Shown here: piece after piece, positions 7,942 through 54,118 of the stretch
Layout of the letters: each line of letters opens with the position of its first letter
How positions within the stretch are numbered: position 1 is the first letter of the stretch
Source of the DNA: a virus
Direction: 5' to 3' (one strand)
DNA length: 64,000 bases
Virus record (IMG/VR): IMGVR_UViG_3300033146_003955
Span: 1-64,000 of that record
Made by a program: the position numbers and the translations under genes
Notes under the pieces: generated by a model
The model's database searches: none
Told to the model about the DNA's origin: nothing
Seen by the model: only the letters and a program-made list of their open reading frames with translations

Positions 7942-8225
7942 AGTTGAGTAATATAGAAATAGGTGATATAATAATTACTAAATATTCTAAACCACAAAGT
8001 GGTATAGCGGGTCATGCCTATATACATCTTTATAACGAAAAGTTTCTTCATGTGGCTAGTATTGATGCTTATGAAGATTGGCATGAAATGCTTAGTAATT
8101 TTTCTTATGTATGGGATCAGTTAACTACGTCTCATAGTATAGAGAAAGGAACAGTAGAGAAAGTGACTAAGCGAAAATTACATATAGCTGTTATGAAAAT
8201 ATTTGAACCAACGAGAGTTAAATGA
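7938..8225 (+). CDS. Small operon-family protein
   Basis: A 95-residue protein starting MKLSNIEIGDIIITKYSK. That opening has the same shape as the next two proteins (MKLRDLKPGTVFML and VKIKDIPDGTFFDY), which is a beta-barrel-like N-terminal strand pattern. Overlaps both neighbours by four bases. Function unknown. Confidence 0.6.
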   Translation: MKLSNIEIGDIIITKYSKPQSGIAGHAYIHLYNEKFLHVASIDAYEDWHEMLSNFSYVWDQLTTSHSIEKGTVEKVTKRKLHIAVMKIFEPTRVK

Positions 8226-8530
8226 AATTAAGAGATTTAAAGCCTGGTACTGTATTTATGTTAACTGTTAACACTTATAACAGGTTAAATAAGTTTGCAC
8301 TTTCTCGTTGTCTATATGAGAGAAATATAGGTACAAAATCTATAGTGTGGATATGGGTGGCTAATAGTAGTCAAAAAGTTCATAGACTTTCACTTGGCAA
8401 CAATACTTTAGTAAAAGAGATATTGAAAGAACATTATGTTCAGAAATTAATTGATATATTATTTAAGTCAGGTTTATACACAGATTATTATGTAAAAGAT
8501 GAAGAAATTGATTTCCGGGAAGGAAGATAG
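8222..8530 (+). CDS. Small operon-family protein ending in amber codon
   Basis: A 102-residue protein starting MKLRDLKPGTVFML, with late motif YVQKLIDILFKSG. It ends with TAG at 8528-8530. The next gene starts four bases later in the same frame, so UAG readthrough would give a 198-residue two-domain protein; this matters because the window carries a CUA-anticodon tRNA. As separate genes, both have plausible ribosome sites. Function unknown. Confidence 0.6.
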   Translation: MKLRDLKPGTVFMLTVNTYNRLNKFALSRCLYERNIGTKSIVWIWVANSSQKVHRLSLGNNTLVKEILKEHYVQKLIDILFKSGLYTDYYVKDEEIDFREGR

Positions 8531-8533
8531 TAT

Positions 8534-8818
8534 ATGGTATATGTAAAAATAAAAGACATCCCGGATGGTACGTTCTTTGATTATGACATTGAGAAAGCAA
8601 GAATTAAATTTGGTGCCGTTTGTAGCACTAGAGACATATTTTTTAAAATGGGTGAACATGATAAGAATAATTGTAGAGTAATACACTTTACTCAACGATG
8701 GGGGGTGCAATGGAAGTATCTATGGGTAAACAAACTAAAGTGTATAAATCACGGAGAGATAATCTCTCACATACAGTTATTGAAAGAATATTCATGGATA
8801 AATATAATTATAGCGTGA
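8534..8818 (+). CDS. Small operon-family protein, paralogue of preceding gene
   Basis: A 94-residue protein (MVYVKIKDIPDGTFFDY) resembling the start of the previous gene. GGAAG lies about eight bases upstream. It is in frame with the preceding TAG, with one codon (TAT) between stop and ATG. Function unknown. Confidence 0.58.
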   Translation: MVYVKIKDIPDGTFFDYDIEKARIKFGAVCSTRDIFFKMGEHDKNNCRVIHFTQRWGVQWKYLWVNKLKCINHGEIISHIQLLKEYSWINIIIA

Positions 8819-9089: not shown

Positions 9090-9161
9090 CAATAACATAT
9101 AATCTTACAAGATAACTTTAAATACTCAAATTGCTGCAAAGCAAATCTTAAGGAATTGAGA

Positions 9162-9596
9162 ATGGAGTTCAAAAAAGTACTGAATGAATCGTATCCCAGA
9201 TATACTCTACGCTATAAAAGCGTCAATCCAGGATATGAATTGCATGATAGTAAACCTTACATAATTGCTCTTGATCAGAAGTATAACACTGACGATAAGG
9301 GTTCCTCCATTCTAGCTTTAAACCTAAATTACCACGACGGAAACGTCGAAGACCTGATAGACCAAATAAATGCATTTGATAACGCTTCGGGGTTTAAAGG
9401 TTTTGAAGGGAAATTGAGCGTTAAAAAATTTCTCAAACAGAAAAATGTAGAAGAGTATGAGGTTAGGAAAAGAAAAAAACGTTATAACGAATTAATAGCA
9501 CAATTTCCTTTCCTTAAGAAATATATTAGAAGGTATAAATATAGCGGACCTAAAGGTACTGGTATCCAGAGTAAGAACCGGAGATTTAAGAAATGA
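9162..9596 (+). CDS. Hypothetical basic protein, possible virion assembly role
   Basis: A 144-residue protein starting MEFKKVLNESYPRYT; I use ATG 9162 with AAGGA ten bases upstream rather than TTG 9156. The stretch KPYIIALDQKYNTDDKGSSILALNLNYHDG resembles the P..I.L.......G.NLHYL pattern of small phage assembly proteins, but the match is loose. The C-terminal 50 residues are strongly basic (RKRKKRYNE, KKYIRRYKYSGPKG, SKNRRFKK), consistent with nucleic acid binding. Followed by an ATGA overlap. Confidence 0.55.
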   Translation: MEFKKVLNESYPRYTLRYKSVNPGYELHDSKPYIIALDQKYNTDDKGSSILALNLNYHDGNVEDLIDQINAFDNASGFKGFEGKLSVKKFLKQKNVEEYEVRKRKKRYNELIAQFPFLKKYIRRYKYSGPKGTGIQSKNRRFKK

Positions 9597-9930
9597 CAAC
9601 GCTGCAAGAGATAAACGATGTAAATATATATATATTCGCTTTTATTCGAAGAATAATTGTCACATCTATTTTGATGCCGGGGAGGTAAGTAGTATAACTA
9701 ATGGTGGTGGGACATTTACTTGGGCAGAGCAATGGATAATAAATATTGATACTTCCACAATTAAAGTTACTCGTGGAAGTAGATGGCCAAATGATAATGG
9801 TAATACATATTCATGGCAAAATATATATGTAGATGATGATTTGATGAAGAGAATGCTAGTTGCAATTGAAAAAAATGATAATAAAAATAGAGAATTTATA
9901 AAAAATATATTTAAGTATGATGGGAAATAG
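9593..9930 (+). pseudogene. Small operon gene frameshifted in a TA repeat
   Basis: ATG 9593 overlaps the previous stop as ATGA, but its frame closes after 31 codons. The adjacent frame is open to TAG 9928-9930 and encodes good protein (YFDAGEVSSITNGGG, TWAEQWIINIDTSTIKV, MKRMLVAIEKNDNKN). The two frames meet in the alternating TA tract at about 9626-9634; removing one TA unit restores a 111-codon gene that fills the space exactly up to the next ATG at 9931. It may be a true mutation, a slippage-controlled (phase-variable) gene, a programmed frameshift or a sequencing error. Confidence 0.7.
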
Positions 9931-10236
9931 ATGAAAGTAAGGGGAACAAATTTTCCAATTTTCGGTTTCAAGGTAAGCAAAAAGAATTGGTCATGTATAG
10001 ATTTTATAGATAGATATGGAAAGGATCAATTTGTTGTTTTATTAAGAGTAGCTTATGGTTATAGCGATAAAGGCGTTTTTTATACACCGAATGGACTATC
10101 TAACATCCCAATAAGTAGGTCAACATTTACTAAATATAAAGATGTTAATACATACTTGCATAAAGATGTTCAACACTATATTGTAAGATCAATATTTAAT
10201 GATAAAAGTGAAAAGAAAATAAAGGAATTGAAATGA
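9931..10236 (+). CDS. Small operon-family protein
   Basis: A 101-residue protein (MKVRGTNFPIFGFKVSKKNWSC) ending VQHYIVRSIFNDKSEKKIKELK, with the recurring I..IF C-terminal element. Its ATG directly abuts the TAG of the frameshifted gene and is in frame with it, the second such TAG junction in this operon. Function unknown. Confidence 0.6.
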   Translation: MKVRGTNFPIFGFKVSKKNWSCIDFIDRYGKDQFVVLLRVAYGYSDKGVFYTPNGLSNIPISRSTFTKYKDVNTYLHKDVQHYIVRSIFNDKSEKKIKELK

Positions 10237-50550: not shown

Positions 50551-52806
50551 GTGAGTCAGTGGAAATGGAAACAAAAATTATCTGAAGAAATATTTCATGA
50601 TAAATATATGATTAATGATGAAAAAAGTGAACAAGATGTATTTAGCGGAGTTGCTAAAGAAGTTGCTTCGGCCGAAAAAACAAAACAAAAAGTAAATGAG
50701 TGGCAACAAAAATTTTATGATGAAATTTCTACAGGAAGATTAATACCAGCAGGAAGGATTTTAGCTAATGCTAGACCAAATACCAAAATGCCATATTATA
50801 ACAATTGCTATACTATAGATATAGAAGATACTATAGAAGGTATAGGGCAATCACAACAAGAAGATTTAATAATTTCTGCTACCGGTGGAGGAGTAGGAAT
50901 TAATTTTTCTAAATTAAGACCTAAAGGTGCTTCACTATCTAAAGGTGGTAAAAGTTCTGGTGTTATATCTTTTATGAAGGGTTTCAATCAATATGCTAAG
51001 GTCATTGAAACTGGGGGATCGCGAAGAGCCGCTCATATTGGTATATTAAATATTGATCATCCAGAAATTGAAGATTTTATAGTCGCCAAGCAGGGTGATA
51101 TAAATAAAGCTTTAACACAATTCAATATTAGTGTTGGAATTACGGATGAATTCATTAATTGCGTGAAAGGTGACAAAGATTGGGATTTGAAATTTAATGG
51201 TAAAGTTTATAAAACAGTCAAAGCAAAAGATTTATATGAATTAATGACCAAAAATGCATTTGAACATAATGAACCTGGAATTCTAAATTTAGATATTATT
51301 AATAAATATAATAATGGTTATTATGATTTTAATATAGAATCTGTTAACCCATGTGGTGAAATTGTTATGCCTCCATATAGTCTATGTTGCTTATCATCTG
51401 TAAATTTAACAAAATTTATTTCTAATCCATTTACAGACCAGGCAAAATTTGACTTCGATTTATATAAAGAGACGATTAATATTGGTATAAGATTTTTAGA
51501 TAATGTATTAGATGTAACCAAATACCCGTTAGAGAAAATTGAAACTTTATCAAAGAAATGGAGAAGAGTAGGGCTAGGATTCACAGGCTTAGGCAATGTA
51601 TTTACTATGTTGAAAATTAAATATGGAAGTGAAGAATCTAAAAAATTATCACATTTATTGGGAAAAACTTTAAGAGATTATTCTTATAAGGCTTCAATTG
51701 AGTTAGCTAAAGAAAAAGGTATGTTTGATAAATGTGATACCAATAAAATAGTAAAATCAAATTTTATTAAACAATTACCTAAAGATATCGTTAAAGATAT
51801 TAAAAAATATGGATTAAGAAACATAGCATTAAACACAACCGCTCCAACAGGTGCAACATCATTATCGTTAGGAAATAATTGTTCTAGTGGAATAGAACCA
51901 ACATTTTCACTATATTACGATCGTTCTATTAGGACAGGAGTTGGAGATGAAATTAAAACAGAAAAAGTATATGATTACGCATGGTTACAATATTTAGAAT
52001 ATATGAAAAAAAATAATTTTGCTATTTCTGATACACCAGATTATTTTGTTACGACATTTGATGTAAATGAATATGATGCAATAGATATACAGGCGATATT
52101 TCAAAAATATATAGATCATAGTATAAGTAAAACATTAAACTTACCGACAGATATAACATATGAAAATTATAATAAATTATTTATGTATGCATACGATAGC
52201 GAATTAAAGGGTTTTACTACATTTAACAGTTCAGGCAGTGTACGCGGTATATTAAACACAGAAGAAAAAAAAGAATATATTAAAAGAACTGAAGCTCCTA
52301 CAAGACCAGATGAACTTGAATGTGATATTCATGAAATTACAGTACAAGGCAAAAAATTTATCATCCTTGTAGGTAAATTATATGGATCACTTTATGAAAT
52401 ATTTCTCGACTCAAATGATGATGGTACAATTGATGTTAATAATCACAAGACAGGTACTATTAAGAAAAACGGTAAAGGAAAGTATTCTTTAATAATTAAA
52501 AACGGAGTTGATAGAGTAGTTGTAGAAAACCTAGCCACATCTTTTGACGCAACATATGGAGTTTTAGCTCGTTTCATCTCTATGGGTTTAAGGCATGGTA
52601 CTCCTCTTCAATTTATAGTAGATCAATTAAATAGATCAAAACATTTCTTGGGATTTGAAAGAGCCGTAAGTAGAGTATTAAAGAAATATATTAAAGATGG
52701 TGAAATTGTTGAAACAAATGAAATATGCCCGGAATGCGGTAACAAAGAATTAAGATATCAAGAGGGATGTTTAGCATGCACATGTGGATGGAGTAAATGT
52801 TCGTAA
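50551..52806 (+). CDS. nrdJ: Class II (adenosylcobalamin-dependent) ribonucleotide reductase
   Basis: A 751-residue reductase that makes deoxynucleotides for phage replication, oxygen-independent, using vitamin B12. Signatures: PAGRILANA, NNCYTID (Cys about 85), ISATGGGVGINFSKLRPKGA, the active-site loop NPCGE (Cys268, Glu270), SLCCLSSVNL, and NTTAPTGATSLSLGNNCSSGIEP. A TSCPD-type region and a C-terminal Cys cluster (CPECGNKEL...CLACTCGWSKC) provide redox relay cysteines. Starts at GTG with AGGGGG upstream. No NrdA/NrdB or NrdD is seen nearby. Intact length is normal for the family. Confidence 0.96.
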   Translation: MSQWKWKQKLSEEIFHDKYMINDEKSEQDVFSGVAKEVASAEKTKQKVNEWQQKFYDEISTGRLIPAGRILANARPNTKMPYYNNCYTIDIEDTIEGIGQSQQEDLIISATGGGVGINFSKLRPKGASLSKGGKSSGVISFMKGFNQYAKVIETGGSRRAAHIGILNIDHPEIEDFIVAKQGDINKALTQFNISVGITDEFINCVKGDKDWDLKFNGKVYKTVKAKDLYELMTKNAFEHNEPGILNLDIINKYNNGYYDFNIESVNPCGEIVMPPYSLCCLSSVNLTKFISNPFTDQAKFDFDLYKETINIGIRFLDNVLDVTKYPLEKIETLSKKWRRVGLGFTGLGNVFTMLKIKYGSEESKKLSHLLGKTLRDYSYKASIELAKEKGMFDKCDTNKIVKSNFIKQLPKDIVKDIKKYGLRNIALNTTAPTGATSLSLGNNCSSGIEPTFSLYYDRSIRTGVGDEIKTEKVYDYAWLQYLEYMKKNNFAISDTPDYFVTTFDVNEYDAIDIQAIFQKYIDHSISKTLNLPTDITYENYNKLFMYAYDSELKGFTTFNSSGSVRGILNTEEKKEYIKRTEAPTRPDELECDIHEITVQGKKFIILVGKLYGSLYEIFLDSNDDGTIDVNNHKTGTIKKNGKGKYSLIIKNGVDRVVVENLATSFDATYGVLARFISMGLRHGTPLQFIVDQLNRSKHFLGFERAVSRVLKKYIKDGEIVETNEICPECGNKELRYQEGCLACTCGWSKCS

Positions 52807-52812
52807 GTTAAT

Positions 52813-52842
52813 AAAGAACCTCTATATATATAGAGGTTCTTT
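52813..52842 (+). terminator. Intrinsic terminator after nrdJ
   Basis: A 30-base perfect palindrome (52813-52842) with T-rich 3' side. The following 250 bases up to 53093 contain no gene except a two-codon frame, a GCATA motif and a hairpin described separately. Confidence 0.85.
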
Positions 52843-53093: not shown

Positions 53094-53468
53094 ATGGTAA
53101 AAATAAGTATTAAAGCAATGGCAACATTATTACGAGAAAAGAAAGAAGAACGCAAAGCAACTCAACGAGCATATTCAAAAATATATTTTAATGGCGAATT
53201 TAATTCAAAAACTTGGCTCAAACAACCTGAGAAATATCTTCAAATTAAACCAATCTTAAATAAAATGGTAGATACTCAATACCAACCTCAAACTATGAAG
53301 GAAGATTTCCGTACTCAGCACATTGTTGATTCAATGTGTAAGGGTAGAAGCATCTCCCAGATTGAGTCTAAGACTCGAGGTACTGAAGATTATAGAATAA
53401 TAAGAGAGAGGTGTTGTAGAGATGCTGTCTCCATCTTAGAAGATATGGGAAAAGAGTGGATTGATTAA
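53094..53468 (+). CDS. Hypothetical basic protein, 124 aa
   Basis: A Lys/Arg-rich protein (MVKISIKAMATLLREKKEERKATQRAYSK) with a helical C-terminal half (TQHIVDSMCKGRSISQIESKTRGTEDYRIIRERCCRDAVSILEDMG). The second half has a helix-turn-helix-like spacing, so DNA or RNA binding is possible. It has an unusual leader with a hairpin abutting the ribosome site. No family recognised. Confidence 0.6.
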   Translation: MVKISIKAMATLLREKKEERKATQRAYSKIYFNGEFNSKTWLKQPEKYLQIKPILNKMVDTQYQPQTMKEDFRTQHIVDSMCKGRSISQIESKTRGTEDYRIIRERCCRDAVSILEDMGKEWID

Positions 53469-53502: not shown

Positions 53503-53574
53503 GTCCTATTCGTCTAGTGGTAAGGCACTGGTCTCTAAAACCAGTCAACAACAGTTCGATTCTGTTATGGGACA
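53503..53574 (+). tRNA. Amber-suppressor tRNA, anticodon CUA
   Basis: Complete cloverleaf: acceptor GTCCTAT/ATGGGAC (7 bp), D stem GTCT/AGGC with loop AGTGGTA, anticodon stem CTGGT/ACCAG with loop CTCTAAA (anticodon CTA at 53535-53537, T before and AA after), variable TCAAC, T stem AACAG/CTGTT with loop TTCGATT, discriminator A at 53574; CCA is not encoded. CUA reads the UAG stop codon. The anticodon arm resembles tRNA-Trp (CTCCAAA to CTCTAAA by one change), while the D arm recalls tRNA-Gln/Glu, so the amino acid cannot be fixed. At least eight genes here end in TAG, so UAG is not simply reassigned. Confidence 0.92.
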
Positions 53575-53580
53575 CTACAT

Positions 53581-53740
53581 GGGGATTAGTATATAAGCTA
53601 GTACAGTCGTTAATCGAGTGTAACAGTATCTGGAAACCACTGCAGGGGCGGTACAGAAAAGCTATACACAGTATAGGAGTTGCAACTCTTGTACTTAAAG
53701 TGATTAAAGAAAGGAGAGAGGTTCATAGCCTCTTGTCCCC
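53581..53740 (+). ncRNA. Possible tRNA-like structured RNA
   Basis: The 190-base gap after the tRNA holds GGGGAT...(53581) that can pair with 53735-53740 (GTCCCC), a D-like arm GTAT/GTAC around ATAAGCTA, and a T-like arm AGAGG-TTCATAG-CCTCT (53717-53733) directly before the acceptor-like strand. About 85 extra bases lie between, with hairpins TATAC-ACA-GTATA and GAGTT-GC-AACTC. The T loop lacks the conserved A58. It may be a degenerate or intron-containing tRNA, a tRNA-like RNA, or chance. Confidence 0.3.
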
Positions 53741-53764
53741 CTTATTTTATAAAAGGAAAATATA

Positions 53765-54118
53765 ATGAGACAGATTAAAAGAGTACCGGAAAATGGCTTT
53801 ATTTATATAATTGCAAAACGTGATAAACATGATGTTTTAAGAGTTCATAGTACGGAAGGTTTATATGCACGACATAACAGTTTCGGTGAAAAAGAGGGAC
53901 TAGTTTATTTATATAATAAAAAAGAATTACTTAAAATTAAAACGAAGAAGGACGATTTTGTTATTAAGATAACATCTAAAGCTATAAAACAAATGTATGA
54001 AATAACACGTAAGAAAAGTTGGGATATATATTCTTATTATATTAAAGATAGAGTTGATCCTCTTTATAGGACGGCATTAAAATATGGAAATGGTAAACAT
54101 TCAAAGCATGTTGCATAA
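53765..54118 (+). CDS. Hypothetical basic protein, 117 aa
   Basis: A Lys/Arg/Tyr-rich protein (MRQIKRVPENGFIYIIAKRDKHD). AAAAGGA precedes the ATG. Begins as a beta-rich fold (GFIYIIAKR, GLVYLYNKKELLKIKT) and ends HSKHVA. No family recognised. Its stop overlaps a GCATA-type palindrome. Confidence 0.6.
   Translation: MRQIKRVPENGFIYIIAKRDKHDVLRVHSTEGLYARHNSFGEKEGLVYLYNKKELLKIKTKKDDFVIKITSKAIKQMYEITRKKSWDIYSYYIKDRVDPLYRTALKYGNGKHSKHVA

Follow-up and report, generated by a model that had tools for sequence, protein, structure and literature searches.

The window, a 64,000-nucleotide stretch of viral DNA, covers positions 1 to 64,000 of IMG/VR record IMGVR_UViG_3300033146_003955, which is linear and 158,812 bases long. 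Downstream of a ribonucleotide reductase gene, and flanked by two small genes, lies a tRNA gene whose anticodon would read the amber codon UAG. It is followed immediately by a structured stretch of DNA (Table 1).

Table 1. Features discussed in the text, in record coordinates (identical to window coordinates up to 64,000).
Feature	Position	Strand	Remarks
Weak candidate readthrough pair	8222-8815	+	TAG at 8528-8530, then in-frame ATG of a small ORF at 8534; no family support
Weak candidate readthrough pair	9679-10233	+	TAG at 9928-9930, then directly the ATG of a same-frame 101-aa ORF
Large TAG-ended gene, 650 aa	27585-29537	+	next in-frame stop two codons downstream
Ribonucleotide reductase gene	50551-52806	+	next larger gene upstream of the tRNA; TAA stop
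Terminator-like hairpin	52813-52842	+	after the reductase gene
124-aa gene	53094-53468	+	upstream of the tRNA; no family
tRNA, anticodon CUA (53535-53537)	53503-53574	+	ARAGORN, Rfam, folding
Structured stretch	53581-53738	+	just 3' of the tRNA; fold z -2.56 over 53575-53765
117-aa gene	53765-54118	+	downstream of the tRNA; no family
Baseplate-domain gene, TAG stop	114043-114924		domain match
CCA-adding enzyme gene	135120-136139 (L005:15120-16139)	minus	Pfam

In the window, ARAGORN reports one tRNA only (53503-53575, plus strand; anticodon cta at position 33). The Rfam model RF00005 matches it end to end with 58.7 bits (cut-off 29; E 4.1e-10), about twice the family cut-off for a canonical full cloverleaf, and flags zero non-standard pairs. 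The cloverleaf is also the minimum-energy structure of the tRNA strand (z -2.5), with one of 200 shuffles scoring equally well. Arm by arm, the sequence reads GUCCUAU-UC-GUCU-AGUGGUA-AGGC-A-CUGGU-CUCUAAA-ACCAG-UCAAC-AACAG-UUCGAUU-CUGUU-AUGGGAC-A: a class-I tRNA with acceptor strands GUCCUAU/AUGGGAC, discriminator A73 and a variable loop of five bases. Its seven-base anticodon loop, CUCUAAA, has the U33 and A37 expected of an amber suppressor. The gene does not encode CCA, as A73 is followed by CAC. All three approaches bear out the complete cloverleaf with anticodon CTA described in the initial annotation, and the Rfam score gives no sign of the pseudo-tRNA that would have spoken against it. 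It is near certain that the phage record contains an intact CUA tRNA, which is phage-encoded and structurally sound and, by its anticodon, predicted to decode UAG. A tRNA model scan of the whole record found no other tRNA.

ARAGORN labels the gene "Pyl" because of its anticodon only. Pyrrolysine tRNAs have a short variable loop, and their D and T loops are without the customary GG and TUC, respectively. Here, GG in the D loop, UUCGA in the T loop and the five-base variable loop do not fit that identity.

The structured stretch begins and ends with GGGGAUU and UGUCCCC and contains a weak D-like arm, an 11-pair hairpin and a T-arm-like hairpin (AGAGG-UUCAUAG-CCUCU). ARAGORN calls it only as an intron-bearing tRNA-Leu under relaxed settings, the loosest of which also match random stretches, and searches for an Rfam family or a phage match returned none. 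By its features it resembles a shrunken tmRNA or an intron-bearing tRNA, although neither identity is established, and it may be a degenerate tRNA-like or tmRNA-like RNA. Among phages with related reductases, tmRNA genes occur near ribonucleotide reductase genes or tRNA clusters (L048:5239-5591, L055:3862-4111 and L122:12523-12807).

With a codon-usage scorer, we called 197 genes that cover 91% of the 158,812-base record. Their stops are TAA in 119 cases, TGA in 52 and TAG in 26 (13%), with TAG ending 10 of the 68 genes in the window; the earlier count of at least eight was thus sound. TAG-ended genes include baseplate and tail-fibre-like ones, and a 1159-aa gene, whose product has no relatives in our search, ends in TAG and lies near a gene that resembles those for major tail proteins. 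Some late genes end in TAG. Internally, the giant, tail and baseplate genes (3500, 2418, 1689, 1383, 1316, 1180, 1159 and 1013 aa) are free of TAG. The initial annotation had doubted full reassignment and proposed scanning the genome for genes that lengthen when TAG is read as sense. Across the full record, longest-ORF cover moves from 0.91 under code 11 to 0.92 with TAG as sense, and no interrupted gene appears; the doubt was justified.

Neither hallmark of code 15 is present: TAG is not found inside essential frames on the record, which may be incomplete, and it is not scarce or absent as a stop (26/197). The record has no match to release factor family PF00472 (code-switch proteins such as release factor 2 and a matching synthetase are common, not universal, in code 15 phages) or to the class-Ic, Glu/Gln-type synthetase family PF00749, and no synthetase of any kind is among its Pfam matches. 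The TAG stops are slightly scarcer than non-coding DNA predicts (26 observed, 37 expected; p 0.045). Backup by second stops is rejected, as stops close behind TAG show no excess over those behind other stops (p 0.19-0.31). We conclude that the phage uses the standard code across the record, which contains no phage gene that needs the CUA tRNA.

We then searched for the same tRNA architecture, defined by D arm CGUCUA together with loop CUCUAAA, in public viral contigs and in 84,980 bacterial and archaeal species, each represented by one genome. Once the anticodon stem is required to pair, ten viral contigs match and none of the genome contigs does, the genome pattern being stricter by two bases at its 5' end (TCGTCTA versus GTCTA). 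No bacterial genome matched a pattern taken from the tRNA's 5' half. Several of the matching contigs are plainly TAG-recoded. When TAG is changed from stop to sense, open-frame cover climbs in L020 from 0.63 to 0.92, in L035 (the class-I carrier) from 0.74 to 0.91, in L132 from 0.60 to 0.86 and in L130 from 0.44 to 0.85. The test can therefore detect recoding. Opposite homologues, the TAG codons of L035 fall on Gln in all three alignable places, a small count, and Q, K and E lead at TAG positions when all recoded carriers are pooled, again in small counts. A long variable arm combined with a Glu/Gln-like D arm characterises a group of CUA tRNAs in L007, L020, L023, L033, L042, L130, L131 and L132; several of these tRNAs sit in clearly TAG-recoded contigs, and phage phAss-1 has a copy.

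The arms of the CUA tRNA form a mosaic: the acceptor, D and T arms most resemble those of phage tRNA-Glu, and the anticodon arm is one base away from a phage tRNA-Trp arm. The best full-length phage matches of the body are tRNA-Glu genes. With the anticodon hidden, isotype scoring gives Glu 10.3 and the next isotype -0.3, on the basis of six tRNA-Glu sequences and a method that was correct in 63 of 117 tests (54%). Compared with jumbo-phage tRNA-Glu (for example, Salmonella phage 7t3), the likeness is 10/15 in the acceptor, 14/17 in the D arm and 18/22 in the T arm, whereas the anticodon arm differs (10/18). That arm instead matches a Brevundimonas phage tRNA-Trp at 17 of 18 positions, in agreement with the earlier remark that it is one mutation away from a tRNA-Trp arm. 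Because the same arm is common to the CUA suppressors of many phages, it need not imply descent from tRNA-Trp.

The E. coli suppressor su7 is a tRNA-Trp with a CUA anticodon, and the initial annotation had invoked it as a precedent. The parallel holds for the anticodon arm, likewise one base from the Trp arm. It fails for the body, which appears Glu-like by full-length matches and isotype score and is not Trp-like, and the discriminator is A in the phage and G in su7. With Trp likeness confined to the anticodon arm, we do not regard the gene as a su7-like tRNA-Trp suppressor. Because the body looks Glu-like and the anticodon arm alone is Trp-like, charging with Glu or Gln appears likelier than charging with Trp. 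A73 and G1-C72 differ from E. coli tRNA-Gln and count against this reading.

The phage carries a CCA-adding enzyme gene of its own. The gene is split, with its N-terminal part upstream of a 1.6-kb insert, and the locus extends to about L005 position 17800 on the minus strand. The insert contains, on its other strand, a homing-endonuclease-like gene and has no match to an Rfam intron family. The enzyme gene may need splicing to work. A phage CCA enzyme alongside a tRNA gene without CCA is suggestive, although host enzymes could equally supply the CCA.

CUA tRNAs without apparent use in standard-code phages have already been published. The cultured Xanthomonas phage XacN1 (AP018399) uses the standard code and has two CUA suppressor tRNAs, the anticodons of which we confirmed; its authors counted 18 amber stops and found no gene extended past them (PMC5852040). 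It resembles the present phage in combining the standard code with a CUA tRNA, but it has 56 tRNA genes compared to one here with an apparently Glu-like body. One clade of Zeta crAss-like phages carries CUA tRNAs without suppression, for which its authors consider either an incipient change of code or a weakening of the host (PMC12386605). Yutin and colleagues proposed that suppressors without reassignment are possible forerunners of code change and suggested an anti-defence use for them (PMC7886860). These crAss-like phages share with ours a CUA tRNA without TAG reassignment (PMC7886860; PMC12386605). Lera, ct1yV3 and ctE7s22 rarely use TAG as a stop, and where they do a second stop always follows shortly after (PMC12386605), whereas the present phage ends 13% of its genes in TAG with no excess of backups. 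PhAss-1 (OQ749652), in contrast, reads TAG as Gln in 41 ORFs (PMC10607447). Its class-II tRNA-Sup-CTA copy has the D arm, anticodon arm and loop CUCUAAA of the present tRNA together with a long variable arm in place of the five-base loop.

Could the tRNA serve the phage's own genes? Programmed or timed readthrough of certain TAG stops would yield extended proteins late in infection; the initial annotation had raised partial or timed readthrough, and three same-frame TAG junctions (8528, 9928 and 129115 on the minus strand) could be its sites. However, neighbours in the same frame are no commoner across TAG (1/26) than across TAA (8/117) or TGA (2/52). The one strong TAG pair, at 129115, is two separate genes, because residue 1 of the downstream protein aligns to residue 1 of its paralogue at 140426-143905; readthrough there is rejected. 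The fused products at 8528 and 9928 match neither a family nor a relative, and a search with the TAG-spanning product of 9679-10233 found no relatives. Around this second site (9156-10236), an open stretch follows GGAGG without an ATG, GTG or TTG start, possibly starting at ATA, and may represent a gene that is frameshifted or has an unusual start. A scan for coding on both sides of an in-frame TAG found no interrupted frame in the record, and the sequence beyond TAG stops scores as non-coding unless the next gene starts there. With backups not enriched either, partial or timed readthrough is unsupported across the whole record, and we consider it improbable. Alternatively, the phage could recode TAG, with the recoded head or lysis genes located beyond the linear record. 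Terminase was not found with four families in six frames, reading through stops, at E up to 1, and no capsid protein was recognised in the record. Since no terminase was found, recoded genes could lie off the record; the head genes may be missing from it or be very divergent. PhAss-1 has TAG-interrupted terminase, portal and tape-measure genes (PMC10607447), and several of the contigs that share this tRNA architecture are recoded. The tail, baseplate and giant genes of this phage are nevertheless TAG-free inside and some late genes are TAG-ended, and we consider off-record recoding just as improbable as readthrough.

We are about evenly divided on the account that we prefer: a real, chargeable UAG-decoding tRNA in an otherwise standard-code phage, recently gained or weakly active, tolerated, and perhaps of benefit by disturbing host proteins. 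The tRNA would be transcribed during infection, receive CCA from the host enzyme or the phage's own and be charged through the host's Glu or Gln route. Once charged, it would compete with release factor 1 at UAG, and some copies of the host and phage proteins that end at UAG would gain short tails. The slight scarcity of TAG and the absence of a backup-stop excess fit weak or recent suppression, which we favour over long, strong suppression because this is a sole tRNA and the TAG stops are unadapted. The same lack of adaptation, and the degenerate tRNA-like stretch next to a lone tRNA, would also suit a gene with no useful role in translation. Such a gene could be a remnant that is uncharged or poorly expressed, or it could act as a decoy for tRNA-cutting nucleases of the host. 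Against this stand the intact cloverleaf and loop, the acceptor, anticodon and T stems being free of mispairs. Decay is unlikely because a decaying gene would soon lose these features, and we regard the remnant-or-decoy alternative as unlikely, if worth keeping in view. Somewhat less probable still is that the phage keeps its sole tRNA as a translational weapon, with UAG readthrough in host messages, such as those for defence proteins, favouring infection; a host-directed role of this kind has already been published as a guess about crAss-like phages.

What is new here is a divergent phage whose record has no tRNA apart from the suppressor and whose TAG stops are unadapted to it. Unused suppressors are a known puzzle, seen as a first step of code change, a weapon against the host or baggage. 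With one tRNA, which is the suppressor, no recoding and unadapted TAG stops, this phage is an unusually clean case. Because its tRNA architecture is common to TAG-recoding phages, it may serve as a candidate example of "suppressor first, recoding later", provided that the host can be found.

Other genes of the record deserve mention. A search of 50,697 phage records returned no relatives of its full-length, eukaryotic-type DNA topoisomerase IB (record 156072-157799; L006:16072-17799; minus strand), which matches the Pfam N-terminal, core and C-terminal domains with E values of 2e-64 to 2e-21. With at least six HNH/homing endonuclease genes, several multi-kilobase tail genes and neither terminase nor capsid protein recognised, the record represents a divergent phage lineage.
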